Shown here: piece by piece, positions 6,375 through 64,000 of the stretch
How the letters are laid out: every line of letters starts with the position of its first letter
Numbering within the stretch: the stretch's first letter is position 1
Assembly: GCF_000425145.1 (NCBI RefSeq)
Contig: NZ_AULF01000010.1
Coordinates: 1 to 64,000, forward strand
Direction: 5' to 3'
DNA length: 64,000 bases
Source of the DNA: Pedobacter glucosidilyticus DSM 23534
GTDB taxonomy: Bacteria > Bacteroidota > Bacteroidia > Sphingobacteriales > Sphingobacteriaceae
Notes under the pieces: generated by a model
Seen by the model: the letters and a program-made list of their open reading frames with translations, nothing else
The model's database searches: none
Told to the model about the DNA's origin: nothing
Position numbers and translations under genes: made by a program

Positions 6375-6420
6375 AAATCAATCAAATTGTTATTTTTGTT
6401 ATAAACGATAAATAATTCTT

Positions 6421-7812
6421 ATGGCTCAATACAAATTACTATTGCCAAAAATGGGCGAAAGTGTAGCGGAAGCAACAGTTATCAGATGGGAGAAAAATCC
6501 GGGTGATAATATTGAAATAGACGATATTGTATTGGAGGTAGCAACAGACAAAGTTGACTCTGAGGTACCATCGCCGGTAAAGGGTAAATTGGTACAGCAG
6601 TTTTTTGCTGAAAATGAGATAGCTCAAGTAGGGGATGTTATAGCTATGATAGAAACAGAGAGCCAAATGGATGATGTTGTGCAAGAAGAAAAAATTGAAG
6701 TTGAGCATATAACAGAAGAGTTAAGTAGCATACAGGAAGAAATCCCAGCTCCAGAAGAACCAGAAGAAGAAATTCCTTTTGTGCCAGCAACAGAAGAAAA
6801 AGAAGACTCAAGTTTTCAATATACAGAGTCAGGAAGGTTTTATTCTCCATTAGTTAAGAGTATTGCACAAGAAGAAGGATTAGATTTAGCAGAGTTAGAC
6901 AAAATTCAAGGTACTGGAGCAGAAAACAGGGTTACAAAAAATGATTTACTCAATTATATTGCAGAGAAAAATCAAACTCAACGTTCATATCAGAAAGAAA
7001 GTAACCAAGCCCATAAAGTAGATAGCAGTAAAGAAGGTTTTAGTTATCATGATGAAATGCCTTCACAGCCAAAATCAACACAGACGGTAACTTACGGAAA
7101 CGGTAATGATGAAATTATCGAAATGGACAGGATGCGCAAGCTTATAGCAGATCACATGATTAGCAGTAAGCAAACTTCTGCTCATGTTTGCTCTTTTGTA
7201 GAGGCTGATGTTACGAACTTGGTGCAATGGAGAAATAAAGTAAAAGATGCTTTTGAAAAAAGAGAAGGCGAAAAAATAACATTTACTCCAATTTTTGTTG
7301 AAGCAGTAGCAAAGGCCATTAAAGATATGCCAATGATTAATATCTCTGTAAATGGCTCTCAAATCATCAAGAAGAAAGATATTAATATTGGTATGGCTAC
7401 AGCATTACCAAGTGGAAATTTAATTGTACCGGTAATTAAAAATGCCGACCAATTAAATATGGTTGGTTTAACCAAAGCGGTTAATGATTTAGCTGCTAGG
7501 GCTAGAATAAATAAACTACAGCCTGATGAAATACAAGGGGGTACTTTTACTATTACCAATATTGGTGGCTTTGGTAATATTATGGGTACGCCAATTATCA
7601 ATCAGCCGCAGGTGGCTATTTTAGCAGTTGGTGTAATAAAGAAAAAACCAGCAGTAATAGAAACTCAACATGGAGACATGATAGGTATCAGACACATGAT
7701 GTATTTATCATTATCTTATGATCATAGGGTTGTTGATGGTGCGCTAGGTGGTATGTTTGTAAGAAAAGTTGCCGATTATTTGGAACAGTGGGATAGCAAC
7801 AGAGAAATTTAA
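6421..7812 (+). CDS. 2-oxo acid dehydrogenase E2 (dihydrolipoamide acyltransferase)
   Basis: 463 residues with the standard E2 order: lipoyl domain (about 1-80, with lipoylated lysine in the VATDKVDSEV context), a Glu/Pro-rich linker (about 85-130), a peripheral subunit-binding domain (about 139-175, SPLVKSIAQEEGLDL and RVTKNDLLNYI) and the catalytic acyltransferase core (about 225-460). The active-site signature is SYDHRVVDGALGG near the C-terminus. It transfers acyl groups from the E1-bound intermediate to CoA. The neighbours are not E1 or E3 genes, so the substrate (branched-chain 2-oxo acids, pyruvate or 2-oxoglutarate) cannot be read from context; the MAQYKLLLPKMGESVAEATV opening is most like branched-chain or generic Bacteroidota E2s. 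A strong terminator follows. Confidence 0.9.
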   Translation: MAQYKLLLPKMGESVAEATVIRWEKNPGDNIEIDDIVLEVATDKVDSEVPSPVKGKLVQQFFAENEIAQVGDVIAMIETESQMDDVVQEEKIEVEHITEELSSIQEEIPAPEEPEEEIPFVPATEEKEDSSFQYTESGRFYSPLVKSIAQEEGLDLAELDKIQGTGAENRVTKNDLLNYIAEKNQTQRSYQKESNQAHKVDSSKEGFSYHDEMPSQPKSTQTVTYGNGNDEIIEMDRMRKLIADHMISSKQTSAHVCSFVEADVTNLVQWRNKVKDAFEKREGEKITFTPIFVEAVAKAIKDMPMINISVNGSQIIKKKDINIGMATALPSGNLIVPVIKNADQLNMVGLTKAVNDLAARARINKLQPDEIQGGTFTITNIGGFGNIMGTPIINQPQVAILAVGVIKKKPAVIETQHGDMIGIRHMMYLSLSYDHRVVDGALGGMFVRKVADYLEQWDSNREI

Positions 7813-14501: not shown

Positions 14502-15359
14502 TTTCTCTAGAACATTTTTAAGCATATTTTCTACAATTAAAGCCGGATTGGTGGCAAATTCAAAATTTAAGCGATTAGCTAAAATGGCATTTATAGAAAT
14601 AGCTTCATGCCCTAAGGCATTGGCAAGAGCGTAAATTCCTGCGGTTTCCATCTCTAAATTGGTAATTGGATGATGGTTTAAATTTAAACTTGTTAACCTT
14701 TCAATAAGGTTATGGATTTTATTAATTGCTCTTACTTTTCTGCCCTGTGGAGCGTAAAACCCAGGAGCCGTTACCGTTATCCCTTTAGGAATATCAGCAG
14801 CTAAAGAATTTAATAAAGAAGCTGACGCTGATGTTAAATAAGGAGATAAGCTTAAATCTTGAAGAGAAGATTGAATTTGTTGCTCTAAAGCTTTATCTTC
14901 AGCGTTTAGGCTTCTTTCATAATAATGCATCAAACTATCTAAACCTAAACCATGTGAAGAGGCTAAAATGCTGCCCATTTCTACATCTTTATTTATACTT
15001 CCAGATGTTCCTAGTCTAATAATTTGTAAAGTTTTATGGTTTTCTTTTACTTGTCTTTGCTCAAAATCAATATTAGCAAGTGCATCCAATTCGTTTAAAA
15101 CGATATCAATATTATCAGTACCAATACCTGTTGAAATAACGGTTATTCTTTTTTTACCGATATAACCCGTATGCGTAATAAACTCTCTTTTGCCCTTTTT
15201 TAGCTCAATTTTATCAAAATACTTGCTCACCTCTGGCACTCTTTCTTGGTCGCCAACAGTAATAATGGTATCAGCAATATCTTCTGGTCTTAAGTTTAAA
15301 TGATAAATACTGCCATCAGCATTTATGATTAAATCTGATGCCGCTATCGTTTTTTCCAT
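14493..15359 (-). CDS. Nucleoside phosphorylase (PNP/UDP family, uridine-phosphorylase-like)
   Basis: 288 residues of the purine/uridine phosphorylase superfamily. Visible are ITVGDQERVPEVSKYFD (phosphate-site glycine/arginine region), STGIGTDNIDIVLNELDAL, IRLGTSGSINKDVEMGS and the nucleoside-binding TNLEMETAGIYAL motif, which matches the ExE/MExE ribose-binding signature. It splits nucleosides (probably uridine or a purine nucleoside) into base and ribose-1-phosphate for salvage. MqnB, the futalosine hydrolase of the nearby menaquinone pathway, belongs to the same superfamily but is usually shorter, so I prefer a salvage role. Convergent with mqnA with a nine-base overlap; YajQ lies just upstream on the same strand with a two-base gap. 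Confidence 0.82.
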   Translation of the reverse strand: MEKTIAASDLIINADGSIYHLNLRPEDIADTIITVGDQERVPEVSKYFDKIELKKGKREFITHTGYIGKKRITVISTGIGTDNIDIVLNELDALANIDFEQRQVKENHKTLQIIRLGTSGSINKDVEMGSILASSHGLGLDSLMHYYERSLNAEDKALEQQIQSSLQDLSLSPYLTSASASLLNSLAADIPKGITVTAPGFYAPQGRKVRAINKIHNLIERLTSLNLNHHPITNLEMETAGIYALANALGHEAISINAILANRLNFEFATNPALIVENMLKNVLEKLA

Positions 15360-15361
15360 AC

Positions 15362-15856
15362 TTAGTTTCTCATGTTGATGTATTGTAGGGGCTGGCCAAA
15401 ATTATCGCCTCTGCAAAGTTGTATCACAGCTTGTAAATCATCAATTTTCTTACCTTGTACCCTTACTTGGTCTTCCATGATAGAAGCTTGTACTTTTAAT
15501 CCAGAATCTTTAATTTTTTTTACAATTTTTTTAGCCGTTTCTTTATCAATACCTTCTTTAACCTCAATATCTTTTCTAATCATATTGCCAGAAACGCTGT
15601 AATGAGGTTTTTCTAAGTTTAAAGCATTAGGATCTAAATGTTGCTTCACCATTCTTGAAATGATAGAATCAATAATCGCTTTTAAACGCATATCATTCTC
15701 TGTTATCACAGTTAGCGCATTGGTTTTTTTATCCAATTCTATAGAACTTTTAGAATCATGAAAATCATAACGATTTAAAATTTCTTTTTTGGCATTATTA
15801 ATAGCGTTATCTAATGTTTGGCTATCTAGTTTACTTACGATATCAAATGATGGCAT
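15362..15856 (-). CDS. YajQ family nucleotide-binding protein
   Basis: 164 residues with the full YajQ (DUF520) pattern: PSFDIVSKLDSQTLDNAIN at the N-terminus, EILNRYDFHDSK, then IRKDIEVKEGIDKETAKK and a QVRVQGKKIDDLQAVI C-terminus. Family members bind RNA/DNA or cyclic di-GMP through two RNP-like folds; the cellular role varies among bacteria. The start at 15856 (MPSFD) is used since the family always begins this way; 18 extra codons upstream to 15910 are in frame but unlike the family. It precedes the nucleoside phosphorylase by two bases and diverges from the lysine-rich protein. Confidence 0.9.
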   Translation of the reverse strand: MPSFDIVSKLDSQTLDNAINNAKKEILNRYDFHDSKSSIELDKKTNALTVITENDMRLKAIIDSIISRMVKQHLDPNALNLEKPHYSVSGNMIRKDIEVKEGIDKETAKKIVKKIKDSGLKVQASIMEDQVRVQGKKIDDLQAVIQLCRGDNFGQPLQYINMRN

Positions 15857-15922
15857 ACAAAAACTTAATTTGATTAATTGAGTTTTTAAAGATAGATTTA
15901 AATAAAACAATAAAAAAGTATT

Positions 15923-16495
15923 ATGAAAGCATCAAAAACCAAAGGGGTAAATAGAAAAGTTAAAAAACAGCTTAAAAGCGATTTAGAAATTAACCTTAAA
16001 GCTAAGCTCAAAGATTTTATTGTGAGTTTGGGGCATGACGCTGAGGATATAGGTGCCGAATTAAAAAAGGCTAGTAAGCTGTTGGCTAAAAAACTAGCGG
16101 CTAAAATTAAAAGTGTAAAAGATATAAAGGTTAATAAAACGGATACTAAAAAGGCCGAAGTAAAAGTGAATACCTTAAAATCAACACAAAAAGCAAAAAA
16201 AGTAATTGCAAAAGCAGTTAAAAAGGTAAATACCAAGGCTGCTGATATAGAAGAAATTATTAAAAAAGAGGTTGTAAATCCAGCTAAAGTAGTTTTAGAT
16301 GATGTTAAAACTGAGGCTCCAAAAGCGACTATTCCTGCTAAAAAAGTAATTAAAAAAGCCCCTACACCAAAAGCTTTGCCAACCAAAAAAGATGTTGATA
16401 AAGCAGTAACTGTAGCTAAGCCAGAGGCACCAAAAACAACCAGCAAAGCACCTGTTAAAAAAGTAAATAAATCATCAACTAAGAAAACACAGTAG
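15923..16495 (+). CDS. Lysine-rich histone H1-like protein
   Basis: 190 residues, 52 of them lysine by my count. The N-terminal third (about 20-65) is a charged amphipathic helix region (AKLKDFIVSLGHDAEDIG, KKASKLLAKKLAAK). The rest is a low-complexity Lys/Ala/Pro/Val/Thr tail with PAKKVIKKAPTPK-like stretches reminiscent of histone H1 tails, chlamydial Hc1 and AlgP. Such proteins bind DNA or other polyanions. No signal peptide or enzyme motif is present. It stands 122 bases upstream of ppk on the same strand, and polyphosphate is a polyanion, so a link to polyphosphate or nucleoid organisation is possible but is inference. The long open frame on the opposite strand is a shadow of the biased codon pattern. 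Confidence 0.75.
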   Translation: MKASKTKGVNRKVKKQLKSDLEINLKAKLKDFIVSLGHDAEDIGAELKKASKLLAKKLAAKIKSVKDIKVNKTDTKKAEVKVNTLKSTQKAKKVIAKAVKKVNTKAADIEEIIKKEVVNPAKVVLDDVKTEAPKATIPAKKVIKKAPTPKALPTKKDVDKAVTVAKPEAPKTTSKAPVKKVNKSSTKKTQ

Positions 16496-16617
16496 ATAAA
16501 GCAAATTGCTGCATCAATTTTGATAGGTATTACGTGTTTTTGAATAATGGCTAACAGCGTTTATACTTAACACATAGTTAACATTAAATTTTGCAGCTTT
16601 GGATTTCGTGGTATATA

Positions 16618-18672
16618 ATGACAAATAGTAAACCTCCAATTTTAAATAGAGAAATTAGTTGGCTATATTTTAATGATAGAGTTTTGCAGGAAGCTGCAGA
16701 TAAAACTGTCCCTTTGATAGAGCGCATAAAGTTTTTAGCTATATTTTCCTCTAATTTGGATGAGTTTTATCGCGTACGGGTTGCTACTTTAAATAGGTTA
16801 ACAACTGTTGTAGACAAAGTAAAAGAGGAATTAGGCTATAATCCTAAAAAAATCCTCAATCAAATTAAAAATATCGTTATTAAACAAGAAAGAAAGTTTA
16901 ATCTTTTGTACGAGGAGATTATCAAAGAACTTTCTAACAATAAAATTTTTATCCTTAATGATAAGCAATTAAACGTAAGTCGGGGAGCTTTCGTAAAATC
17001 GTTTTTTAGAGATAAGCTTTTATCTGCTATTGTGCCTATTATTTTAGATGAAAAACAGCCTTTTCCAGAATTAAAAGACAGGGTTATTTATTTTTTAGTA
17101 AAACTATCCAAAAAAGATAAAAAATCTAAAATTAAATATGCTTTAATAGAGCTTCCTGAAGGTATAAGTAGATTTTTAATTTTACCAGAAACCAACAATC
17201 TGAAATTTATTATTCTGGTAGATGATATCATTAGGTATTGTTTAGATGATGTTTTCTTCATTTTTGATTATGATGAAATTGAAGCATATTCTATTCAAGT
17301 TACCCGTGATGCTGAATTGGATTTAGATAAAACAGTTAGTGATAAATTTATAGAAGCATTATCTAAAAGCTTACAAAAGCGCAAAAAAGGTAAGCCAATG
17401 CGTTTACTTTATGATACTGCCATGCCAATGGATATGCTATCAACCATTGTATCAAAATTAAATTTAAACTCAGAAAGTTTAATACCCGGTAACAGGTATC
17501 ACAACTTTAAAGATTTTATAAGCTTTCCTAATGTAGGTTTAGATAATTTAGAATATAAAAAGGAGACACCGCTGCCGGTAAAAGGTTTAAGCTATTTTAA
17601 AGGTTTATTCGAGTTGATTAAACAAAAAGACTATCTTATCAGTCTGCCTTATCAATCTTTTGACTATATCATCCACTTTTTAAGAGAAGCCGCCATAGAT
17701 CCAAAAGTTACCGAGATACATATCACTTTATATCGTTTGGCAGAAAATTCTAAAGTAATTAATGCGCTTATCAACGCATCACGTAATGGCAAAAAGGTAA
17801 ATTGTTTGGTTGAGCTTAAAGCCCGTTTTGATGAGCAAGCCAATATTTATTGGACAAACAGACTAGAAGAAGAGGGGGTAATGGTTAACTATGGTATCAC
17901 CGGTTATAAAGTGCATTCTAAAATTTGTTTAGTTACCCGTATAGAAAAAGGCGTTAAAGTACATTATGCTAATTTAGCTACAGGCAATTTTAATGAGAAA
18001 ACTGCTGGTATTTATGGTGACCATAGCTTATTTACTGCTAATCCTAAAATTACGGATGAATTAAGTAAACTGTTTATAGCCATTTCTAAAAAAGCAATTT
18101 CTAAAGATTATAAGCATTTAATAGTTTCTCCTTTAGAAACTCGACCTAAATTATTCGCACTCATTAATCAGGAAATTAAAACTGCCAAACAAAATAAAGA
18201 GGCTTACATTATCTTAAAAATGAATTCGCTTGCTGATGAGCAAACCATCAAAAAGCTTTACGAAGCTAGCAATGCGGGTGTAAAAATTACATTGATAGTA
18301 CGTGGTATGTGTAGCTTGGTTCCTGGAAGAAAAGGTTTTAGCGAAAATATTGAAGTGATATCTATTGTAGATAAATATTTGGAACATGCTAGGATATGGG
18401 TTTTTGCAAATGGAGGGAAAGAAAAAGTCTTTTTATTATCAGCCGACTTAATGACTAGAAACTTAGATCATCGGGTAGAAGTTGGTTTCCCTATTTATGA
18501 TGAGACTATCAAACAGGAAATTAGAGATATTATAGATATACAATTAAAAGACAATACCAAAGCCAGAGAAATCAATCATCTCAACAACAATAAATATCGT
18601 AAAACTGGTCATAAAGAACCTTACCGTTCTCAAATAGAGATATATAATTATTTAAAACAAAAACATAGCTAA
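16618..18672 (+). CDS. ppk1: Polyphosphate kinase 1
   Basis: 684 residues, full length for PPK1, with N-terminal (NREISWLYFNDRVLQEA), head, and two phospholipase-D-like catalytic domains. Key pieces are FSSNLDEFYRVRVATL, the autophosphorylated histidine in YKVHSKICLVTR, ATGNFNEKTAGIYGDHSLF and the second histidine in LDHRVEVGFPI. The enzyme builds polyphosphate from ATP reversibly. The start at 16618 (MTNSKPP) is preferred over an in-frame upstream codon at 16591. The Ppx/GppA gene starts two bases after the stop, so synthesis and breakdown are co-expressed, and the lysine-rich gene lies upstream. Confidence 0.95.
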   Translation: MTNSKPPILNREISWLYFNDRVLQEAADKTVPLIERIKFLAIFSSNLDEFYRVRVATLNRLTTVVDKVKEELGYNPKKILNQIKNIVIKQERKFNLLYEEIIKELSNNKIFILNDKQLNVSRGAFVKSFFRDKLLSAIVPIILDEKQPFPELKDRVIYFLVKLSKKDKKSKIKYALIELPEGISRFLILPETNNLKFIILVDDIIRYCLDDVFFIFDYDEIEAYSIQVTRDAELDLDKTVSDKFIEALSKSLQKRKKGKPMRLLYDTAMPMDMLSTIVSKLNLNSESLIPGNRYHNFKDFISFPNVGLDNLEYKKETPLPVKGLSYFKGLFELIKQKDYLISLPYQSFDYIIHFLREAAIDPKVTEIHITLYRLAENSKVINALINASRNGKKVNCLVELKARFDEQANIYWTNRLEEEGVMVNYGITGYKVHSKICLVTRIEKGVKVHYANLATGNFNEKTAGIYGDHSLFTANPKITDELSKLFIAISKKAISKDYKHLIVSPLETRPKLFALINQEIKTAKQNKEAYIILKMNSLADEQTIKKLYEASNAGVKITLIVRGMCSLVPGRKGFSENIEVISIVDKYLEHARIWVFANGGKEKVFLLSADLMTRNLDHRVEVGFPIYDETIKQEIRDIIDIQLKDNTKAREINHLNNNKYRKTGHKEPYRSQIEIYNYLKQKHS

Positions 18673-51736: not shown

Positions 51737-52855
51737 TTATTTGAATAGTTCACTAATATCAGCAAAACCTGTCCAGCCTTTAGAGGTGGCACCATATCTT
51801 GCAAAAGAGCCCATTACTACAGTTCTTTTAACTTGGGTTGTTTTATTTTCTTTTATCAGGATGTTATCAGTGTTTATATCAAAGTTTTTAGCTAATATTT
51901 CTCTTTTATCAGCCATTTTACCGTTGTTTAAAAGCTCTGCCTCGGCTGCTGTTAGCAGGTAGTTTTTCTGCTTGGGGTTGTATCCGTAATGATGAAAAGC
52001 TATAGCATCTTGAGTATTGGTAAAAGAGTTATTGGTGAAATTATAATGAGTTGCAAATGTTTCATCACCTGGATCCACATCATTAAATAATGGAACAGAT
52101 ATAAAAGCATAAACAGGAAAGCTTGAAGTACGAACAAAAGTGCTGTTTTGTACGGTTCCATAATCGCAATGTGCCCTAAAGCGAACATAATCGCCTGTAC
52201 AATCTTCAAAATAACAGTTTAAAACTTTAATATGAGAAGCCCAATAAGAGTGATACATGAAGTGAGAATGGCTATCAACCCCGATACGTTTAAAAACACA
52301 GTTTTTGTAAGTGATATGGCTAGTGCCTTCTTGGTGAGCTCCGGTAGCACCGTAAATAATACCACGCATATCCATCCATGAGCAATTTTCAACTAAAATG
52401 TTTTTTGTGGTATTTCCTTTAGTAGATGTAATTCTTAAAGCATAACCTAAACTCCCATCACCAGTAAAATTAAAGTTTTTAAAACTTATGTTTTGAGCAT
52501 TAATTACGTCTATTAATACTGGTTTTTTAGGGTATCCAACAGGTACTGAAAAAATTGTTTTCTGCGATTCTCCTTCAAGGATGAGCTTATTTTTTGAATG
52601 TCCCATATTTTTAAGGAGAAGAGGTTTTTCTATAAATGCTCTTACATAATCTCCGGCTAAAAATTTAATAGTTATGCTCTCTTTAGCTAATTGCTTTTGT
52701 ATGGATTCCCAAAAATCAGGATTGAGGAAATCAGCAGGGTCAGATATTTGAGTCCCTTTGCCTGTACCTTTAGGAGCAACGTATTTAACAATGTCTGCTT
52801 GTGCAGCTTTAAAAAAGAAAAGTATGATGATACTAAAAATAAGAAGTGGTTTCAT
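51737..52855 (-). CDS. Secreted right-handed beta-helix protein, possible polysaccharide lyase
   Basis: 372 residues with a signal peptide (about 1-20, LLIFSIIILFFFKAAQA). The body is a parallel beta-helix: successive rungs such as AQNISFKNFNFTGDG, NILVENCSWMDMRG, SHITYKNCVFKRIG and SHIKVLNCYFEDCTG, then GTVQNSTFVRTS. This is the fold of pectate, alginate and chondroitin lyases and of some glycoside hydrolases. Two histidine-rich patches (DSHSHFMYHSYW and AFHHYGYN) and DYVRFRAHCDYG might form the active site. I do not recognise a CAZy family, so the enzyme class is open. It is the last gene of the susC-susD strand, behind a strong hairpin, and probably cuts the glycan the locus imports. Confidence 0.75.
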   Translation of the reverse strand: MKPLLIFSIIILFFFKAAQADIVKYVAPKGTGKGTQISDPADFLNPDFWESIQKQLAKESITIKFLAGDYVRAFIEKPLLLKNMGHSKNKLILEGESQKTIFSVPVGYPKKPVLIDVINAQNISFKNFNFTGDGSLGYALRITSTKGNTTKNILVENCSWMDMRGIIYGATGAHQEGTSHITYKNCVFKRIGVDSHSHFMYHSYWASHIKVLNCYFEDCTGDYVRFRAHCDYGTVQNSTFVRTSSFPVYAFISVPLFNDVDPGDETFATHYNFTNNSFTNTQDAIAFHHYGYNPKQKNYLLTAAEAELLNNGKMADKREILAKNFDINTDNILIKENKTTQVKRTVVMGSFARYGATSKGWTGFADISELFK

Positions 52856-52865
52856 TGAAAGGATA

Positions 52866-52910
52866 AAAAATTAAGACCGCTACTTTATAGACGATTTATA
52901 AAGTAGCGGT
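52866..52910 (-). terminator. Hairpin between the DUF5017 gene and the beta-helix gene
   Basis: Arms of 14 bases, ACCGCTACTTTATA (52876-52889) and TATAAAGTAGCGGT (52897-52910), are perfectly complementary with a seven-base loop; on the minus strand a T-rich run follows (52866-52874). It starts about seven bases past the DUF5017 stop codon and ends about 10-20 bases before the start codon of the beta-helix gene, leaving no space for a separate promoter between them. Confidence 0.85.
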
Positions 52911-52916
52911 TATTGT

Positions 52917-53825
52917 TTAAGGTTCTATAGTTAGTTTAATGCTTTTTACTAATGTTCTTGTTTCTTTTTTAGTGGCATTAATACCAGTAAAGTAAACATC
53001 ATAAGTACCTGGGGTAGGATAAGAGAAATTGAAACTTGTAGGTCGTGGTTCAGAATATCCTTTTATTTTTTCTGGTCTATCTGGCCCTAAATCTCTATCG
53101 GAAACATCAATGGCTTTGCTAATACACCAATCTTCTGTTAAGTCTGTATTAGAAGATGCATTTGCTCTTAAAGTAATGGTTGTAGAAGTAATACTAGAGC
53201 GGCCGCTTGTTTCTTTAGGGCCAAAATAATAAAGTCCGAAATTGGCATTAGTTTGATCTGCTAAAGTTTCTAAACCATTAGAAGTATTACTTTGTAAGTT
53301 AAAACCTCTTATAGCCCATGTTCGGCCAGCTCCAGCACCAGGAGTAAATACATATTTTAATACAAAATAAAGAGGTTTTCCGCTAACCCTTAAATCTGTA
53401 ATATCAGCAATACCAGAACTTAAATAAGTACCAGAGGTAGCTAAAGTAAATCGGTCGGTGATATCTGTCCAAGAAGCCGCTTTAATTGCATCTATATTAT
53501 ATTGTCCACTAAAATTAGTTGATACTAATACAGATAATTGATTGGGCTGAGTGCCAAAGTTAACACTACTGGTAAAGGATAATTTTAAATCATTTAGCGT
53601 AACAACTCTACCTTCTTTAAAATTATAGTCATTACCGGGTAAGCCAGAGTAAAAAGTTAATATTCCTGGATTTCCAGTAAAATTAAAAGCTATTTCTTCA
53701 CCAACTTTATATGTGTTTTTATCTGTATTTACAGTAAATTCTGGTTCAGCTTCAACATCGAGAGAGCTGTCGCATGATACTAACACTACTGGCAATATCA
53801 TGTAAAAAAGATATTTTAGTTTCAT
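52917..53825 (-). CDS. DUF5017 surface lipoprotein of the SusCD locus
   Basis: 302 residues. Lipoprotein signal (FYMILPVVLVSCDSS; cysteine near 17), an Ig/PKD-like N-terminal domain (about 25-115, FTVNTDKNTYKVGEEIAFNF) and a DUF5017 body with GRTWAIRGFNLQSNT. The C-terminal half has another beta-sandwich ending YDVYFTGINATKKETRTL. DUF5017 proteins occur next to SusD in glycan loci and are thought to be surface glycan-binding proteins; that role is inferred. It comes 29 bases after susD on the same strand. An extended frame to 53918 overlaps the susD 3' end and is not used. Confidence 0.82.
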   Translation of the reverse strand: MKLKYLFYMILPVVLVSCDSSLDVEAEPEFTVNTDKNTYKVGEEIAFNFTGNPGILTFYSGLPGNDYNFKEGRVVTLNDLKLSFTSSVNFGTQPNQLSVLVSTNFSGQYNIDAIKAASWTDITDRFTLATSGTYLSSGIADITDLRVSGKPLYFVLKYVFTPGAGAGRTWAIRGFNLQSNTSNGLETLADQTNANFGLYYFGPKETSGRSSITSTTITLRANASSNTDLTEDWCISKAIDVSDRDLGPDRPEKIKGYSEPRPTSFNFSYPTPGTYDVYFTGINATKKETRTLVKSIKLTIEP

Positions 53826-53854
53826 TTCTAGTTTTTTAGTTTTTTTTAAAAAAA

Positions 53855-55450
53855 TTACCATCCTGGATTTTGTGTAAGTAGTTTGTTTAGAACGATATCT
53901 CCAGCAGGTATTGGCCATAAAACATGTTTGCTTTCTTGAGCGTTTAAGAATCTGATTCTGTAGTAAGGTCTAGCTGTAAAGTTTTGATCTATATTTTGTA
54001 AAACAACATTCATTTCAAAAGCAAATATACCCCACCTGATAAGGTCTGATTTACGTAACTGTTCAAAAGCAAGCTCTCTCATTCTTTCGTCTTGTAACTC
54101 GCTTTTAAAATCTTCATAATCTAAACTGCTACTTAAATCATATTGATTGATATTGATAGCGCCTGGCAGTAATTTTCCAAAAGCTCTTCTGCGTACTTGA
54201 TTTATAGCTTCAAAAGCACTAGGTGTTGGATTGTTGTTTATTTCGTTTTCTGCTTCTGCATACATCAATAAAACATCAGAAAATCTTAATAGCGGAAAAT
54301 TCTGAGGGGTTTGTCCAACTGCTTTAGGTATTAAGGTTTCGTATTCTCTTCTAAATTTAGCCGCTTGTCTGTTATAAAGATTAGCATCTGTTACGGTTCC
54401 TGTGATAAGTGTTTTGGAACCACTAGGGCCACTGTTATTGTATGTAAAGTTGGCAATACACCAATCTCTTCTTAGATCATTAGCATTATATTTTCTATAT
54501 AATTTTGCAGTAACTCTAAGGCCGCCAAAACCATTGCCTGTTTCAACATTAGAGGTTTGAGGACCATTAGCAAAACCAACAAAACCTGTCTCAGTGTAAA
54601 CATCAGTTCTGTTACCCCAAAACTCAACTTCAAAAATACTTTCTTTAATATCGTATTCGTCTCTGGCTATTTTTATAAATATGTTAGAATAATCTGGATT
54701 TAAACTGTGCGCCGCTTGTGTGTCATCTATAACTTTTTTAGCCCAGGTTCTTGCTTCTGCATATTTAGAAACGTCTTTTAAAGGTTCGCCAGCCATGTTT
54801 AAGCAAACACGGGCTAAAATACCTCTAACGGCAGATTTACTTACTCTACCGGCATGTCCAATAGCCGTTATATCTGGTACTAAATTTTCTGCAGCAGTCA
54901 TATCAGCTAAAACTTGATTATAAACTTCTGCAATAGAGTTTCTGGCAGCATCTATATCTTTAACAGAGGCTGTAGACTTTGTGAATATGGGTACACCTCC
55001 GTAAGATTGTACCAGTAGAAAGTAATAATAACCTCTTAAAAATAAGGCTTCACCTTTGATTCTGTTTCTAAAACTTTCAGCAATAGAAGTGTTTTTATCA
55101 ACATTTTCTAGCAATATGTTGGCCCTGTTGATTCCTCTAAATAATGTAGACCAAATATTAGTAACATCACCAAAACTAGAACTGAAATTAAAGTTTTGAG
55201 GACCTATAGCGGGTGAATTTCTAGCAAACCAACCTTCGTCAGCCTCTATACCAGCTCTGTAAAGCCATACACCGCCATAAACGTTACCTAAAATATCATA
55301 AGTACCTGCAAGGGCAGAGGTTAAATCAGCCTCAGTTTCAAAATAATTGCTTAGAGATAAAAAGTCTAAAGGCTCTTTTTCTAGAAATTTTTCGCAAGAA
55401 CTAAAAACTAATACTACTAATATCAGAATTGAATATATTGATTGTTTCAT
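53855..55450 (-). CDS. SusD/RagB family glycan-binding lipoprotein
   Basis: 531 residues. Signal with lipobox (ILVVLVFSSCEKFL), then the SusD-type helical TPR scaffold: FETEADLTSALAGTYDILGN, a GEALFLRGYYYFLLVQSYGG segment and ADMTAAENLVPDI. The C-terminal SusD_RagB region has LLRFSDVLLMYAEAENEIN and ELAFEQLRKSDLIRWG. SusD proteins sit on the cell surface as the lid of the SusC channel and bind a specific glycan or peptide. It begins ten bases after the susC stop codon, the usual arrangement. The ligand cannot be named. Confidence 0.95.
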   Translation of the reverse strand: MKQSIYSILILVVLVFSSCEKFLEKEPLDFLSLSNYFETEADLTSALAGTYDILGNVYGGVWLYRAGIEADEGWFARNSPAIGPQNFNFSSSFGDVTNIWSTLFRGINRANILLENVDKNTSIAESFRNRIKGEALFLRGYYYFLLVQSYGGVPIFTKSTASVKDIDAARNSIAEVYNQVLADMTAAENLVPDITAIGHAGRVSKSAVRGILARVCLNMAGEPLKDVSKYAEARTWAKKVIDDTQAAHSLNPDYSNIFIKIARDEYDIKESIFEVEFWGNRTDVYTETGFVGFANGPQTSNVETGNGFGGLRVTAKLYRKYNANDLRRDWCIANFTYNNSGPSGSKTLITGTVTDANLYNRQAAKFRREYETLIPKAVGQTPQNFPLLRFSDVLLMYAEAENEINNNPTPSAFEAINQVRRRAFGKLLPGAININQYDLSSSLDYEDFKSELQDERMRELAFEQLRKSDLIRWGIFAFEMNVVLQNIDQNFTARPYYRIRFLNAQESKHVLWPIPAGDIVLNKLLTQNPGW

Positions 55451-55460
55451 GATACAAAAA

Positions 55461-58400
55461 TTAAAAAGTAGATTTTAAAGTAAATACTATGGTTCTGGCT
55501 ATAGGGTAAGCAGAAAAATCAAAACCTGGTGTTAATGCAGATCTTCTTACAGATACTTCTGGATCCATACCTGTGTAATTTGTCCAGGTAATTAAATTTT
55601 GAGCTGCTACGCCTAAATTGAGGGTATTTAAAAATGTTTTGCTCATATATTTTTTAGGAATATTGTAAGATAAAGACAAGGTTTTTAATCTTAAATATGA
55701 GCCATCTTCTAAAACTCTATCAGAGTGGTAACCTGTAACACCTTGACCTCTTGCTCTAAAGTTTGTACTGGTTGGGTTTTCTGGCGACCATCTATCTACA
55801 TAAGAAGCAAACTGGTTTAAATTGGCTCTTACGTTACCGTTTCCTTCAAACATCAACCGGTTTGCGTTGTATATTTGATTACCATAAGACCATTGGAAAA
55901 AAACATTTAAAGAAAAATTGCCGTAGTTGAGGTTGTTGTTAAACCCGCCGGTATGTATGGGTAATCCTCTACCTAAAACGGTTAAATCTTGAGGGTCTAT
56001 GGTTCCATCACCATTAATATCTCTATACTTTATATCGCCTGGCTGTACATTATTAGTACCGTTTCTTGATACAGAAGGTTTTAAAACATATACTCCCTCA
56101 GAAGGATTGTTAAAATCTTCATAATTGTAAACACCTTCCCAAATATAGCCATAGAACATACCTACCGGTTTACCAATCTCAGAGATGTAGAGAGGATTTG
56201 CATTGTATTGAGTTTCAAACGAAGGTGTCGCAAAAAACTTTTCTTGTCCTTCTGCTAAGGCCAAAACCTTATTTCTATTAAAACTGATATTAAAATCAGA
56301 ATACCATGAGAATTTTTTTGTTTTAAAATTTTCAGTAGAAAGTGTTATTTCTAAACCTTCGTTTCTTACGCTGCCGATATTTTTAAAGGCTGAAGCAAAT
56401 CCAGTAGTGCTAGGTAATAAAGCATTTAACAGTAAGTCTCTAGTGTTTTTTCTGTAAATATCAACCGTTAAGTTAATTTTTGACTTAAACATAGATAAAT
56501 CCCAGCCTAAATCCATCTGTTCAGTTGTTTCCCATTTTATATCTTGATTTCCAAGTGTAGAAACAATAGACGCAAGTTGAGGGGTTCCGTTACCCCATGA
56601 ATAAGAAGCCGGGAAAGAGTTAATTAAGCTAGGATATGTTGTGTATTCACTAATTCTATTGTTTCCGGTTAAACCGTAACTAGCTCTTAATTTAGATTGA
56701 TTAATGAAGCCTATATTTTTAAACCAACTTTCTTCATGCATGCTCCAACCTGCTGCAACAGAAGGGAAATAAGAAGCTCTGTTTTGTTTAGCAAATTTAG
56801 AAGATGCATCAGATCTTAAAGTAGCTGTTAATAGATACTTAGATTTATAACTATAATTTAATCTGGTAAATGCGGATACTAAAGAAAATTCTGCTTGTAG
56901 GGCTGAGGTTGATAATGGATTTCCAGCATCCATACCACTCATACCTAAATTTTCATTTGGAATTTGTTGGGTAGTATAGCCATAAGAATTTCTTGCTACT
57001 TCTTGTAAAGAAAAACCGCCTAGTGCTGTAAACTTATGTACTTTATTAAATACCTTGGTATAAGTTAAAGTGTTTTCATTACTTAATGTTAAAGATTCAT
57101 TAAAGCCAATGCCTGCATTTACGCCTTTAGTATTAAAAGCACTTCTTGTGGTTCCTCTTGGAGTTTTAGAATTATAAAATGCCTCTGTTCTTCCTGATCT
57201 AGAGTTTACAGAGCCCGTAATTCTTAATTGTAGATTTTTAGTTAAAGCATAATCTGCATAAACATTAGCTAAGAAATCTGTTATAAAGCTTTTATTGTAC
57301 GCATTTAAAGTAGTTACAACTGGATTAAAACTAGCATTAAATTGGTCTATAGTTTCTTCATCAACATCCTCTTCTATTAAATTTAAATTAACGTTTCCGG
57401 TTACTGGTCTAAAAGACCAAGCTCTGGAAAGTAAATAAGTGGTAAAAGATGTTCCTTCACCTTCTGCAACTGCTGTACCATCTGTTATTCTTTTACTATA
57501 ATTGGTATTTAAACCAATTTTTAATTTTTTATTTACCGTTTGGTCTATATTTACTCTTCCTTGATAACGGTTATAGCCAGAATTTAGAATAATACCGTCT
57601 TGTCCATAAATATTTCCAGAAATATTATACTTTGTTTGAGCAGTTCCACCTCTTACAGCAATGTTATGAATTCTGTTTAATGTTGTTCTAAATATTTCTT
57701 CCTGCCAGTTGACTGGTTTTACATTTCTGTAAGATTCCAGCGTTCTTCCGTCTCTAAAATAAAGTTGTGTAGCTAGATCTGAATCTAGTTCTGATTGATA
57801 TTTAACAAACTCATAAGGGCTCATCACATCGATGAGCTTTTGTGGAGATTGTACGCCAATACTGTTATTAAAACTAATTACCGGAGCACCAACCTTACCT
57901 TTTTTTGTCTCTATAATGATAACACCGTTAGCTCCGCGAGCGCCGTAGATAGCAGTGGCCGACGCGTCTTTTAGAATGGTCATAGACTCAATATCTTCTG
58001 GATTAATTGCAGCATTGTCTGGATCCTCAATAGGGAAGCCGTCTATAACGTATAAAGGGGCGTTACTTTGAGTTAAAGAATTGCCACCTCTTATGGTGAT
58101 GTTTAAGGCTTCTCCTGGTTGCCCGTCAGATGCCGAAGCAGTAACACCAGCAACTCTGCCGGCTAAAGCCTCTTCAAAAGATGCAACAGGAGCTTTAACT
58201 AAGTCATCCATACTAACAGTAGAAATAGAGCCAGTAGCATCCGCTTTTGTTGTAGAACCATAACCTATAACAATAACTTCTTTTAATGCTTTATTATCTA
58301 CACTTAAAGAAATATTAAGTGTATTAGAATTCGTGATGGCAATATTTTTAGATAAATAGCCCAAGTAGGATATTTCGATAATTTCGTTGGTGATACCTTT

Positions 58401-58610
58401 TATAGTGTAAGCACCTTCTTCGTTAGTGGTTGTACTACGGTTACTTCCTCTTATTTTTAATACCGCTCCAGGTAAAGTTTCCTTTGTAGTTTCGTCTATA
58501 ACTATTCCTTTAATATTTCTTAAGGACTGTGCATTGAGTTTTTGCGGCATTATAAATACAAGCCATAGACAGCAACAACTCGTGAATAATGAAGATAATT
58601 TTTTTATCAT
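55461..58610 (-). CDS. SusC/RagA family TonB-linked outer-membrane transporter
   Basis: 1049 residues. Signal peptide (about 1-28), a CarboxypepD_reg-like domain (about 33-110, NIKGIVIDETTKETLPGAVL), a TonB box with EVIVIGYGSTTKADATGS near 115, a plug domain (about 125-235, GARGANGVIIIETKKG) and a 22-strand barrel ending in the terminal Phe motif TIVFTLKSTF. It imports oligosaccharides in complex with SusD. There is no N-terminal STN domain, so anti-sigma coupling is not expected and control by the LacI-type regulator is more likely. Two operator-like sites lie upstream at 58676-58688 and 58808-58821. Confidence 0.95.
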   Translation of the reverse strand: MIKKLSSLFTSCCCLWLVFIMPQKLNAQSLRNIKGIVIDETTKETLPGAVLKIRGSNRSTTTNEEGAYTIKGITNEIIEISYLGYLSKNIAITNSNTLNISLSVDNKALKEVIVIGYGSTTKADATGSISTVSMDDLVKAPVASFEEALAGRVAGVTASASDGQPGEALNITIRGGNSLTQSNAPLYVIDGFPIEDPDNAAINPEDIESMTILKDASATAIYGARGANGVIIIETKKGKVGAPVISFNNSIGVQSPQKLIDVMSPYEFVKYQSELDSDLATQLYFRDGRTLESYRNVKPVNWQEEIFRTTLNRIHNIAVRGGTAQTKYNISGNIYGQDGIILNSGYNRYQGRVNIDQTVNKKLKIGLNTNYSKRITDGTAVAEGEGTSFTTYLLSRAWSFRPVTGNVNLNLIEEDVDEETIDQFNASFNPVVTTLNAYNKSFITDFLANVYADYALTKNLQLRITGSVNSRSGRTEAFYNSKTPRGTTRSAFNTKGVNAGIGFNESLTLSNENTLTYTKVFNKVHKFTALGGFSLQEVARNSYGYTTQQIPNENLGMSGMDAGNPLSTSALQAEFSLVSAFTRLNYSYKSKYLLTATLRSDASSKFAKQNRASYFPSVAAGWSMHEESWFKNIGFINQSKLRASYGLTGNNRISEYTTYPSLINSFPASYSWGNGTPQLASIVSTLGNQDIKWETTEQMDLGWDLSMFKSKINLTVDIYRKNTRDLLLNALLPSTTGFASAFKNIGSVRNEGLEITLSTENFKTKKFSWYSDFNISFNRNKVLALAEGQEKFFATPSFETQYNANPLYISEIGKPVGMFYGYIWEGVYNYEDFNNPSEGVYVLKPSVSRNGTNNVQPGDIKYRDINGDGTIDPQDLTVLGRGLPIHTGGFNNNLNYGNFSLNVFFQWSYGNQIYNANRLMFEGNGNVRANLNQFASYVDRWSPENPTSTNFRARGQGVTGYHSDRVLEDGSYLRLKTLSLSYNIPKKYMSKTFLNTLNLGVAAQNLITWTNYTGMDPEVSVRRSALTPGFDFSAYPIARTIVFTLKSTF

Positions 58611-58821: not shown

Positions 58822-59049
58822 AATTTAGAAATTATTTTTTAATTTCATAAATAATTTGATTTTTTTTAATAAGATTATTTTATAATTGTAAAATATATAG
58901 GAAGTTTTAGCCCAATTATAGCTTTAAAATGGCATTTTATAAATTTTTCAGAAGATTAAATTTATATTTAAGTTAAGAGGTCTTTAATTTTTCTTTTAAA
59001 GAAATTTTGATGTTGTGTAATAGTAATAAATAGATTGTTTTTTGGATAT

Positions 59050-60240
59050 ATGATGTTATTAAAAACTCTAATGATAGCTTTAGCATTCTTTTGCAAACTC
59101 CATGTTTTAACAAATAGTGATGCAAAACTTTTAAAGAAAAAGAATGACGATATAGTAAATGCACAAAAAAAATCAAGCGAGTTAAAAAATTGGAAAAAAA
59201 TAGCATCATATTTTAATCCGCCCCCAGTATTTAAAGATAATTTTGGCGATTATCGTTCACCTTTAGCGTTTTACGATGGTAGACTGGTAGAATCAAAAAC
59301 GGATTGGAAAGCAAGGCGAATTGAAATTAAAAAAAATTGGATGTCTTTGATGGGAGAATGGCCAAAATTCATAGAAACACAAAATATTAATTTTGTTGAT
59401 ACTATACAGAGAGATGGCTTCACACAATATACCATCATTTTTAATTGGACAATTAACGAGAAAACCAAAGCCTATTTATGTATTCCTAATAATAGGCATC
59501 AGAAAAAAATGCCTGCAATTATTACGACTTATTACGAGCCTGAAACAGCAATTGGTTTGGGTAAACCTGACCGAGATTTCGCATATCAATTAACAAAAAG
59601 AGGTTTTATAACACTTTCTATAGGTACAACTGAGGCTACAAAAGCTAAAACTTACTCTATTTTTTATCCTTCTTTGCAGCGAAGTACCATACAACCTTTA
59701 TCTATGTTGGCTTATGCTGCCGCAAATGCCTGGTTTGTTTTGGCCAATTTAAAAGTTGTAGATGAAAAAAGAATTGGTATTATGGGGCATTCTTTTGGAG
59801 GCAAATGGGCTATGTTTGCCTCTTGCTTATTCGATAAATTTGCTTGTGCCGTTTGGTCTGATCCAGGAATTGTATTTGATGAAAATATATTATCTGTAAA
59901 CTATTGGGAGCCTTGGTATTTAGGCTATCATCAACAGCCATGGAGACCAAGAGGACCTATTACTAAGAATAACCCTGCTTTTGGTTTATATCCAAAACTT
60001 ATACACAATAAACTTAATTTACACGAGTTACATGCGCTTATGGCACCAAGGCCTTTTTTAGTATCTGGTGGTGAGGCAGATCCTCAGAAGAGGTGGGAAG
60101 CATTAAATCACACCATAAAAATTAATGAGCTTCTGGGTTATAAAAATAAAGTGGCAATGACGAACCGACCTTTGCATGCGCCAAATGCTGAATCTAACGA
60201 ACAAGCTTATTCGTTCTTAACTTACTTTTTAAAACCCTAA
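59050..60240 (+). CDS. Secreted alpha/beta-hydrolase, acetyl-xylan-esterase/CE15-like
   Basis: About 396 residues. A signal peptide (LLKTLMIALAFFCKLHVLT) precedes an alpha/beta-hydrolase domain. The nucleophile elbow is IGIMGHSFGGKWAMF (about residue 248), the acid is likely in LVSGGEADPQKRWEA and the histidine in NRPLHAPNAES. A WEPWYLGYHQQPWRPRG loop could shape the substrate site. The style resembles carbohydrate esterases that remove acetyl or glucuronoyl esters from glycans. The ATG at 59050 is used; an in-frame TTG at 59035 is weaker. The second hydrolase gene follows 15 bases downstream, and both are in the same locus as susC-susD, so esters on the substrate are expected. Confidence 0.8.
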   Translation: MMLLKTLMIALAFFCKLHVLTNSDAKLLKKKNDDIVNAQKKSSELKNWKKIASYFNPPPVFKDNFGDYRSPLAFYDGRLVESKTDWKARRIEIKKNWMSLMGEWPKFIETQNINFVDTIQRDGFTQYTIIFNWTINEKTKAYLCIPNNRHQKKMPAIITTYYEPETAIGLGKPDRDFAYQLTKRGFITLSIGTTEATKAKTYSIFYPSLQRSTIQPLSMLAYAAANAWFVLANLKVVDEKRIGIMGHSFGGKWAMFASCLFDKFACAVWSDPGIVFDENILSVNYWEPWYLGYHQQPWRPRGPITKNNPAFGLYPKLIHNKLNLHELHALMAPRPFLVSGGEADPQKRWEALNHTIKINELLGYKNKVAMTNRPLHAPNAESNEQAYSFLTYFLKP

Positions 60241-60255
60241 AGGTTATACAACATA

Positions 60256-61134
60256 ATGATTAGTATAAATAAATTTAAAATGAAAAAGAATAAAGACATA
60301 CTAAAACGCATTTTATTAATATCAGGATTACTTCTTTGTTTCTGTTTTTCTTCTTACGGAAAGTTTGCATCTGCAAAGGATTCTGTAACTATAAAAAATA
60401 ATTTAAGATATCAAGTAACAGATACCACTTATCCTGATACTTCATCTGATAGAACTCTAGACCTTTACTTGCCAAAAAATAAAGGAGATAAATTACCTGT
60501 ATTCGTTTTTATACATGGAGGTGGATTTAGTGGTGGTGATAAAAATAGTACAGCTGCATTTTGTGCTAAGGTAGCATCTTATGGCTATGCAGTTGTTTCT
60601 ATCAATTACAGACTTTACTTAAATAAACATAAAATAGTTGGTGCTAGTTGTAGTGCAAATATGGCTAAAGGACTAAAAAATAATTTTCATGAGGGATTAC
60701 AAGTAGCAATTAAAACCGCATCAGAAGATGCAATTTTTGCTTTAAAGTGGATTAAAGAGAATGCTAAATTATATGATTTTGATTGCAATAAGGTGGCAAT
60801 TTCTGGCGGTTCTGCTGGCGCTATGACGGCCTTATATACAGCCTATATCATCAAAGATAAACCATTAAATATAAAAGCTGTTGTTAATTTATGGGGAGGT
60901 CTAGAGCATCCTTTTTTAATACGCAAACAGGCAGCACCATTATTAACTTATCATGGAGACCAAGATAAACTTATTCATGTTAATTACGCCTATGCACTTC
61001 ATAAAAGAATGAATGAAATCAAAAACTTTCAATCTAAAATTAATATCATGAGCGGGCTAGGGCATGCGAGATATGACTATATCACTAAAAATAAAGTTGA
61101 TGAAATTATATCCTTTTTAAATACCTTTTTATAG
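60256..61134 (+). CDS. Secreted alpha/beta-hydrolase, lipase/esterase (BD-FAE) type
   Basis: 292 residues with a signal peptide (ILLISGLLLCFCFSSYG) and an alpha/beta-hydrolase of the HGGG type. The oxyanion motif is FVFIHGGGFSGGDKNS, the nucleophile is in VAISGGSAGAMTAL, the aspartate in YHGDQDKLIHVNY and the histidine in LGHARYDYI. Relatives act on acetyl or feruloyl esters of polysaccharides. An in-frame ATG at 60280 would give a more typical signal; the longer start is kept because the previous gene ends 15 bases before it. The two hydrolases probably act on different ester positions of the imported glycan. Confidence 0.82.
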   Translation: MISINKFKMKKNKDILKRILLISGLLLCFCFSSYGKFASAKDSVTIKNNLRYQVTDTTYPDTSSDRTLDLYLPKNKGDKLPVFVFIHGGGFSGGDKNSTAAFCAKVASYGYAVVSINYRLYLNKHKIVGASCSANMAKGLKNNFHEGLQVAIKTASEDAIFALKWIKENAKLYDFDCNKVAISGGSAGAMTALYTAYIIKDKPLNIKAVVNLWGGLEHPFLIRKQAAPLLTYHGDQDKLIHVNYAYALHKRMNEIKNFQSKINIMSGLGHARYDYITKNKVDEIISFLNTFL

Positions 61135-61269: not shown

Positions 61270-62499
61270 ATGGCTAACCAATTAAAAATTATACATGCAA
61301 AACTTATTTTGCCATCTCAAATTATGGATGATGCCACACTTTTAATAAGTGATGGTTTGATTACATCGATAAGTAAAAATGATATTGACGCACCTTTAGC
61401 TCAGGTTTTGGATGTTAATGGAAATTATGTTTCTCCTGGTTTTATAGACCTGCATGTACATGGTGGTGGTGGTTATGATTTTATGGATAGAAGTGTTGAG
61501 GCATTTTTGAAAATAGCCGAAACACATGTTAAATTTGGAACAACAGCAATGTTTCCTACCACTTTAACAAGTACCACAGAAAAACTCATAGAAACTTTAT
61601 CATGCTATGAGAAAGCCGAGAAAATAAATAAAAAAGGAGCTCAATTTATGGGGATGCACTTAGAAGGCCCATATTTTGCCATGAGTCAACGCGGAGCACA
61701 AGACCCAAGATATATCAGAAACCCAGATCCATTAGAATACAATAAAATTTTGGAAATAGGTGGTCATCTTATTAAAAGATGGAGTGCAGCCCCTGAATTA
61801 GAAGGAGCAATAGCTTTTGCAAAACAATTAAAAAATTATAATATTTTACCTGCTATAGCTCATACAGATGCTATTTATGAAGAAGTTATAGAAGCGTTTG
61901 ACAATGGTTATACACTAGCTACACATTTTTATTCTGCCATGTCTGGAGTAGTGCGAAGAAATGCCTTTAGGTACGCAGGTGTTATAGAAAGTGGTTATCT
62001 AATAGATGATATGGATGTAGAAATCATTGCAGATGGAATTCACCTACCAGCGCCTTTACTAAAACTTGTTCATAAAATAAAGGGTGTTTCTAAAACTGCC
62101 TTGATTACTGATGCGATGAGAGCTGCTGGGATGCCGGAAGGAGAGGCTATACTTGGAGATTTTGAAGACGGCATTAAAGTAATTGTAGAAGATGGTGTAG
62201 CTAAACTTCCCGATAGAACTGCTTTTGCAGGAAGCGTAGCAACAGCAGATAGGCTAGTAAGAACAATGATTAATGAAGCTGGAATAGCTTTAAAAGAAGC
62301 TATTGAAATGATTACTGCTACACCTGCCAGAATTATGGGAATACATCATCATAAGGGTTCTATAGAAATAGGTAAAGATGCTGATTTAGTAGTATTTGAT
62401 GATGATATAAATGTTAAAACTACCATTGTTAATGGAGATATTTTGTACAATAAACTTTCTCCAGCTTTCAATCCGGAAGAACTTATAAACAAAATTTAA
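61270..62499 (+). CDS. nagA: N-acetylglucosamine-6-phosphate deacetylase
   Basis: 409 residues of the amidohydrolase superfamily. Metal ligands and catalytic residues are present: FIDLHVHGGGGYDFMD (HxH), GMHLEGPYFAMSQRGA (E), AIAHTDA (H), THFYSAMSG (H) and ALITDAMRAAG (catalytic D). IADGIHLPAPL and ITATPARIMGIHHHKGSIEI follow. The family converts N-acetylglucosamine-6-phosphate (or the galactosamine form) to the amine and acetate. THFYSAM replaces the more usual THLFNAM. It is preceded by operator site C, and the nagB-like gene begins 11 bases after its stop, so they form one unit. A kinase that would make the phosphate is not in the window. Confidence 0.9.
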   Translation: MANQLKIIHAKLILPSQIMDDATLLISDGLITSISKNDIDAPLAQVLDVNGNYVSPGFIDLHVHGGGGYDFMDRSVEAFLKIAETHVKFGTTAMFPTTLTSTTEKLIETLSCYEKAEKINKKGAQFMGMHLEGPYFAMSQRGAQDPRYIRNPDPLEYNKILEIGGHLIKRWSAAPELEGAIAFAKQLKNYNILPAIAHTDAIYEEVIEAFDNGYTLATHFYSAMSGVVRRNAFRYAGVIESGYLIDDMDVEIIADGIHLPAPLLKLVHKIKGVSKTALITDAMRAAGMPEGEAILGDFEDGIKVIVEDGVAKLPDRTAFAGSVATADRLVRTMINEAGIALKEAIEMITATPARIMGIHHHKGSIEIGKDADLVVFDDDINVKTTIVNGDILYNKLSPAFNPEELINKI

Positions 62500-62510
62500 A
62501 TAGCAATATA

Positions 62511-63242
62511 TTGAAAACACAAATTTTAGAAAACAGAGAAAAATTAGGAGAAGTAGCTGCTAAAGAAGTTGCAGATTGTATCCATAAACTTTTACAAACC
62601 GAGGAATTTATCAATCTTATTTTTGCTGCTGCCCCTTCGCAAAATGAGTTTCTTTCAAACCTATTAAACTTACCTATAGTATGGAATAGGATAAATGCTT
62701 TTCACATGGATGAATATGTAGGCTTACCAGAAGACGCACCACAGGGTTTTGGAAATTTTTTAAAGAGAAATATTTTTGATAAAGCTCCTTTCAAGAGCGT
62801 TAACTTGATTAATGGTAATTCCTCTTTTGTACAGGGAGAGTGCGAAAGATATACTAAAATTCTTCAAGAATTTCAGCCACACATGGTATTAATGGGCATA
62901 GGAGAGAATACGCATATTGCTTTTAACGACCCTCATGTCGCAAATTTTAACGATACAGAAGCGGTTAAAGTTGTTGATTTAGACACTGCTTGTAGGCAAC
63001 AACAAGTTAATGATGGTTGTTTTGAGAATTTAAATGAAGTGCCTCTTTATGCATTAACTTTAACTATTCCAACTTTAATGTCGGCACCTCATATATTTTG
63101 CATGGTTCCCGGAGAAAAAAAATCACAAGCAGTTTTACATACACTTAAAGCAGAGATTACCGAAAATTATCCATCAACCATACTTAGAAATCACCCAAAT
63201 GTAAGTTTATTTTTAGATAAAGATAGTGCAAAGCTTATTTAA
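62511..63242 (+). CDS. NagB-like amino-sugar-phosphate isomerase/deaminase, divergent
   Basis: 243 residues of the glucosamine-6-phosphate deaminase/6-phosphogluconolactonase family. FHMDEYVGLPEDAPQGFGNF carries the catalytic aspartate region and GIGENTHIAFNDP replaces the family's GIGxDGHIAFNEP: the aspartate and glycine before the histidine are Asn and Thr, and the glutamate after it is Asp. The histidine is kept. It goes on with DTACRQQQVNDGCFENL and PLYALTLTIPTLMSAPH. The start codon is TTG at 62511. It follows nagA by 11 bases, so it should use the deacetylated product, but these changes may mean a different sugar or reaction. Confident of the family, not of the reaction. Confidence 0.72.
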   Translation: MKTQILENREKLGEVAAKEVADCIHKLLQTEEFINLIFAAAPSQNEFLSNLLNLPIVWNRINAFHMDEYVGLPEDAPQGFGNFLKRNIFDKAPFKSVNLINGNSSFVQGECERYTKILQEFQPHMVLMGIGENTHIAFNDPHVANFNDTEAVKVVDLDTACRQQQVNDGCFENLNEVPLYALTLTIPTLMSAPHIFCMVPGEKKSQAVLHTLKAEITENYPSTILRNHPNVSLFLDKDSAKLI

Positions 63243-63316: not shown

Positions 63317-64000
63317 ATGGATAAAGATTCGGAAAAAGAGCTGGTAGGTGTTAAAGAAATAGCCAGAAGAGCAAAAGTATCTATTGCCACTGTAGATAGA
63401 GTTTTACACAATAGGTCTGGTGTATCAGAAAAAACCAAAGCTAAAATACAGGCAATTATAGAAGAGCTAGATTATAAGCCAAATATTTTGGCTCGCCGGC
63501 TGGCCTCAAAAAAAGTTCTTAATCTTGCTATATTAATACCAGCAGTATCTCAAGAAACAGATTATTGGAACGCTCCTTTAACAGGAATTATACAAGCAGA
63601 AGAAGAAATAGCTTCTTATGGTGTTAAAGTAAATAAGTATTTTTTTGATCAAAATGATAAAGGTTCTTTTGTACAACAAGCGAATTTTATTGTTGATAGT
63701 AATTGCGACGGAGTTTTGCTTGCACCAATGTTTATAGAGGAATCTAAATATTTTATCCAAAATTGTATTTCAAAAGGTATTCCTTATGTATTCATAAATT
63801 CTGATGTTCCAGAGCAAAATAGTTTATGTTATATTGGTCCAAATCTTTATGCTAGTGGTTATCTTGCCGCACATCTTTCAGGATTTTTAGTTGCAGATAC
63901 TGATCAAATCTTAATCGTAAATATCTCTAAAGAAATAGATAACCATCATCATCTTTTAAGAAAAGAAGAAGGTTTTAGAGAGTATTTTTCAGTTAACAAC
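63317..64000 (+). CDS. LacI family transcriptional regulator (runs off right edge)
   Basis: An ATG at 63317 opens 228 codons to the window edge with no stop. The N-terminal helix-turn-helix is GVKEIARRAKVSIATVDRVL (about residues 11-30) with HNRSGVSEKTKAKIQ and the hinge-proximal YKPNILARRLASKK, all typical of LacI-family DNA-binding domains. A periplasmic-binding-like sensor domain follows from about 65 (LNLAILIPAVSQET) of the Peripla_BP_4 type. The C-terminal part is missing. It lies 74 bases downstream of the nagB-like gene on the same strand and is the natural candidate for binding the GTACGTACCCG-type sites of this locus. Confidence 0.88.
   Translation, partial: MDKDSEKELVGVKEIARRAKVSIATVDRVLHNRSGVSEKTKAKIQAIIEELDYKPNILARRLASKKVLNLAILIPAVSQETDYWNAPLTGIIQAEEEIASYGVKVNKYFFDQNDKGSFVQQANFIVDSNCDGVLLAPMFIEESKYFIQNCISKGIPYVFINSDVPEQNSLCYIGPNLYASGYLAAHLSGFLVADTDQILIVNISKEIDNHHHLLRKEEGFREYFSVNN

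Follow-up and report, generated by a model that had tools for sequence, protein, structure and literature searches.

The window analysed here comprises 64,000 nucleotides (positions 1 to 64,000 of contig NZ_AULF01000010.1 of Pedobacter glucosidilyticus DSM 23534). Near its right end, on the plus strand, an open reading frame at 62511..63242 starts with a TTG codon and encodes a 243 aa NagB-like protein; it follows the end of nagA (61270..62499, plus strand) by 11 bases and precedes a LacI-type regulator recognised by family match (63317..64000, plus strand), which continues beyond the window to contig position 64381. Upstream of nagA, and also named by family match, lie an alpha/beta hydrolase (59035..60240) and a BD-FAE-type alpha/beta hydrolase (60256..61134), both on the plus strand and only putatively within a shared operon with it. 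An outer-membrane pair named from sequence reading occupies the minus strand at 53855..58610 (SusD-like, 53855-55450; SusC-like, 55461-58610), and is followed on that strand by a right-handed beta-helix protein and a DUF5017 protein (51737-53918). The gene order in the host runs from the esterases through NagA, the NagB-like protein and the LacI regulator to three Gfo/Idh-type oxidoreductases, an FHS-type transporter (a label that is our reading of an MFS match), a fourth oxidoreductase, an unassigned 789-residue protein and a CBM9-like protein.

The NagB-like protein scored 51.5 bits against PF01182 (Glucosamine_iso; gathering cut-off 27, E 1.6e-13). Its top NCBIfam model was nagB (TIGR00502), yet at 136.5 bits it fell below the 236.9 cut-off of that model, and it was also below those of the AgaI galactosamine-6-phosphate isomerase model NF007291 (70.1 bits vs 271) and the 6-phosphogluconolactonase model TIGR01198 (64.7 bits vs 124.45). 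The AlphaFold2 model (pLDDT 96.7, pTM 0.92) found as its top structural matches the NagB structures of S. mutans (2ri0; also 2ri1), E. coli (1dea) and B. subtilis (2bkv), with TM 0.86-0.92 but only 23-30% identity over the structural match, followed by 6-phosphogluconolactonases. The NagB fold and the place after nagA, both part of the original prediction, are thereby borne out by the model, its structural matches and the 11-base gap.

We aligned the NagB-like protein with E. coli NagB, E. coli AgaI, the other PF01182 proteins of the host and 97 relatives (a set in which a few loci are present twice from two collections, identical sequences being entered once), and took 51 NagB/AgaI domains as the sample of the ordinary state. 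Compared with E. coli NagB the protein shows D141N, G142T and E148D with H143 retained, and its motif GIGENTHIAFNDP (residues 129-141; 62895..62933, plus strand) is not a chance variant, because N141 (97/97), H143 (97/97) and D148 (96/97) are near-fixed across the family. The original prediction had read these letters correctly and had taken them for an altered catalytic signature; that description holds for E148D only, where Asp stands in the protein and in 96 of its 97 relatives and Glu in all 51 ordinary domains. At position 141 most ordinary NagBs have Asn (N 36, D 10, T 3, S 2 among the 51), as in S. mutans NagB, whose motif is GIGRNAHIGFNEP and whose GlcN6P structure has been solved; we therefore rejected D141N as the key change. 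Position 142 varies freely within the clade (Gly in 55 of the 97 relatives, Thr in 24, Cys in 11, others in the remainder), and at least 10 changes there are required on the tree, so G142T was likewise dismissed as a functional change. Neither position signals altered chemistry, since Asn is usual at the one and the other changes often.

The larger differences were absent from the original prediction. The phosphate site of E. coli NagB consists of the TGGTP loop, Arg172 and Lys208; in the NagB-like protein Lys208 is retained, whereas the loop and Arg172 are both replaced. The counterpart of the TGGTP region reads AAAPSQ (residues 39-44; 62625..62642, plus strand, from the alignment), with Ser44 and Gln45 invariant in the clade. 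Arg172 is gone throughout the clade and a conserved CRxQQ has been gained, here CRQQQ (residues 161-165; 62991..63005, plus strand). In the AlphaFold2 model CRQQQ sits where helix 159-167 begins, and its Arg may therefore replace Arg172. Asp72, His143, Asn147 and Lys208 are invariant in all 97 relatives, the catalytic Asp72 and His143 among them. Judged from the alignment, the change of Glu148 to Asp, the altered phosphate loop and the exchange of Arg172 for CRxQQ are real marks of the clade.

A maximum-likelihood tree of 107 rows, the comparison proposed with the original prediction, placed the subgroup outside classical NagB/AgaI and outside the 6-phosphogluconolactonases. The divergent NagB-like proteins form one clade (support 100/95), which includes one member with Glu148 (L043); E. 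coli NagB, AgaI, the NagB-PIG-L fusions and short NagBs form a second (99/90), and the 6-phosphogluconolactonases stand apart from both. Scanning a single genome of each species gave at least 578 relatives. Members of the clade occur in Bacteroidota genomes and in records that carry a Bacillota label; contamination alone is an unlikely source of the latter, because several further members were found in genomes of the same phylum as a Clostridia MAG. Our literature search found no characterised member of the clade, and the protein belongs to a deep, apparently uncharacterised branch of the NagB family.

Set against known systems, the protein resembles the NagBs of E. coli, B. subtilis and S. 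mutans in fold, in its operon with nagA, in Asp72, His143, Asn147 and Lys208, and (S. mutans) in Asn at 141; it differs in Asp148, the AAAPSQ loop, the loss of Arg172 and gain of CRxQQ, its separate clade and its score below the NCBIfam nagB cut-off. E. coli AgaI, a putative galactosamine-6-phosphate deaminase/isomerase, shares the PF01182 fold family and Asn at 141, but belongs to the classical clade. The NagB-PIG-L fusions (PRK02122/NF002557), of which the host has two, share the PF01182 domain, and an FHS transporter adjoins them as well; unlike the NagB-like protein they fall in the classical clade, read GIGRTGHIGFNEP, carry their own PIG-L domain and have no nagA neighbour in the host genome. 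The 6-phosphogluconolactonases (PF01182) have the same fold but a GxGxDxHTAS motif and a distant place in the tree, and the host encodes one separately, on contig C4. For another nagB in the literature, that of the F. johnsoniae chitin locus, expression was unsuccessful and deletion of the gene had no effect.

The adjacent NagA (409 aa; NCBIfam, alignment, tree) scored 301.7 bits against the NagA model TIGR00221 (cut-off 225.65) and retains the catalytic metal and Asp residues E131, H195, H216 and D273. In place of Asn219 and the standard 10-residue phosphate-side loop, the NagA variants have Ser (75/75) and a 4-residue insertion (GREPG loop); Leu306 is changed to Phe in 74 of the 75, every one of them has Arg at position 226, and 72 have Arg or Lys at position 227. 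These variants form one group (SH-aLRT 100), and Ser219 was present in all 30 NagA loci read in the co-occurrence survey. By our own residue matching, which is not that of the published work, the M. smegmatis NagA residue corresponding to Asn219 binds phosphate, as does a loop Arg from the other subunit, and the backbone at the position matching 306 reads the C4 hydroxyl (PMC6016474). A phosphate-binding role for NagA His251 was considered and set aside, as its M. smegmatis equivalent contacts the anomeric hydroxyl (PMC6016474). A third NagA-like type, with THLGN instead of TH.YN/TH.YS, was seen in L183, L185 and L258-L261; two of its genes adjoin basal members of the divergent NagB clade.

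The two variants travel together. In 70 cases the NagB-like gene has a NagA as its neighbour in the same orientation, and most of the gaps between them are shorter than 40 bases. With NagA types assigned from alignment columns, the variant NagA stood next to a divergent NagB in 85 cases and next to a classical NagB in 0, and an Asn219 NagA stood next to a classical NagB in 9; only 2 Asn219-typed NagAs adjoin a divergent NagB, both of the third type. Among 201 genomes of the order, the NagB variant was present in 66, and the NagA variant accompanied it in 63 of these vs 0 of the other 135 (Fisher p ~4e-49, the kinship of the genomes being ignored); G054, G111 and G112 are the three that have only the NagB variant. 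This near-strict coupling points to what would be a dedicated pathway in about one third of the sampled genomes of the order.

Among relatives, the NagA and NagB-like pair is accompanied by a varying set of transporter, oxidoreductase, GH20 hexosaminidase and SusC/D genes. In the 57 loci with long flanks (among L055-L134), 30 had oxidoreductases only, 15 had GH20 only, 2 had both and 10 had neither, as if oxidoreductases and GH20 were alternative feeders of the pair, the kinship of these loci being ignored in the count. An assignment of the secreted oxidoreductases to GH109 found no support, as the one tested had as its best PDB matches the dehydrogenases 8tdf/8tdh at ~100 bits and matched GH109 at 24-35 bits. 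A link to uronate use through UxaC, KDG kinase and KDPG aldolase genes downstream in some Mucilaginibacter was set aside, an opposite-strand gene intervening in L083, L099 and L125. A ROK kinase gene was present in 3 of the 57 full loci and most of these operons held no kinase; ROK-family proteins, which are candidate kinases, are encoded elsewhere in the host genome. The host genome holds no second recognised NagA. Its two NagB-PIG-L fusions (L036, contig C10 of host genome G000, 5134-7053 and 15015-16940), each beside an MFS transporter, could process GlcNAc-6-phosphate without NagA, and ordinary GlcNAc-6-phosphate catabolism need not therefore be the task of the NagB-like protein.

We consider the protein to be, somewhat probably, a cytoplasmic amino-sugar-6-phosphate deaminase of a divergent NagB subfamily, acting after a co-diverged NagA on a substrate other than plain GlcNAc-6-phosphate. 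GH20 hexosaminidases or the secreted Gfo/Idh-type oxidoreductase sets would free an N-acetylated amino sugar outside the cytoplasm. This sugar would be imported via the FHS-type transporter and, we infer, phosphorylated by a kinase encoded elsewhere; the NagA variant would then deacetylate it and the NagB-like protein would deaminate it, converting an aldose to a ketose with release of ammonia. His143 and Asp72 would carry out ring opening and enolisation, Asp taking the place of Glu at 148, and the retained residues support such an aldose-ketose deamination. The C6/anionic-group pocket is remodelled jointly in both enzymes, which argues for a shared, changed substrate to which the pair would be tuned. 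The group bound would still be anionic, most simply phosphate, because basic residues are retained (Lys208 and the Arg of the CR motif; Arg226/227 of NagA); the amino sugar phosphate of the original prediction is thus plausible, with these residues partly kept in both enzymes.

The main rival is a plain second GlcN6P deaminase that would serve a locally controlled additional GlcNAc route, its differences representing drift within an old clade. We regard this as doubtful, but several points speak for it: fold and catalytic residues are the same as in NagB, GH20 hexosaminidases able to free GlcNAc lie beside many members, the host is without another recognised NagA, a fructose-6-phosphate product requires no extra enzymes, and two isozymes of GlcN6P deaminase are known from B. 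subtilis (PMC3648570). Old paralogues can, moreover, retain one substrate despite pocket drift, which counts against the changed substrate that we favour, as do the lack of a kinase in most operons and the failure of the host AgaS and aldolase search to show an alternative product route. Drift sits poorly, however, with pocket residues that stay constant across two phyla and have changed in the two partners together, with variant and classical NagA/NagB partners that are never mixed, and with the two fusions already in the host.

The substrate may be another sugar isomer, as the original prediction had it; one such reading, that the protein serves GalNAc use (GalNAc6P to GalN6P to tagatose-6-phosphate) as its galactosamine-6-phosphate deaminase, strikes us as unlikely. 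Galactosamine catabolism often uses AgaS and a class II tagatose-bisphosphate aldolase, and neither was found in the host. The absence of AgaS, a competing gene, from 200 of the 201 genomes of the order counts for this reading; against it, the class II aldolase model gave no match over its cut-off in the 201 genomes (weak matches in 4, none in the host), and AgaI itself lies within the classical clade. One genome (L279, L280; G189 contig C5, 372828-375757) has an AgaS-like gene near a tagatose-bisphosphate aldolase-like gene, and also the NagB variant. In favour of GalN6P, the change at NagA 306 sits where the M. smegmatis NagA backbone reads the C4 hydroxyl (PMC6016474), and Bacteroidetes have been reported to possess enzymes that release GalNAc yet no known pathway for its use (PMC5583593). 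A further reading, that the pair defines an undescribed route in Bacteroidota and Bacillota for neither ordinary GlcNAc- nor GalNAc-6-phosphate (for example for a differently configured amino sugar that the secreted Gfo/Idh oxidoreductases leave behind, or for an amino sugar bearing a different acidic group at C6), we hold to be rather improbable. That the protein is no deaminase at all, and is only an isomerase, a lactonase or a non-catalytic relative, is very hard to credit. Glu148 is indeed Asp in almost the whole clade, but Asp is still an acid, Glu148 is kept in L043, D72, H143, N147 and K208 are invariant, a paired deacetylase would yield amino sugars, and the 6-phosphogluconolactonases lie apart in the tree; the earlier suggestion that the protein might only isomerise finds no support, given the invariant Asp72, His143 and Lys208 and the acid retained in E148D.

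The original observation stands, though part of its emphasis was misplaced. What emerges is a NagB subfamily, divergent and apparently uncharacterised, whose NagA has diverged along with it, and it is this partner that is new here. Annotation of such genes as ordinary GlcN6P deaminases carries with it the assumption that fructose-6-phosphate is the product. The NagA/NagB variant pair is a candidate for those parts of amino-sugar catabolism in Bacteroidota that are without known genes, such as the use of GalNAc.
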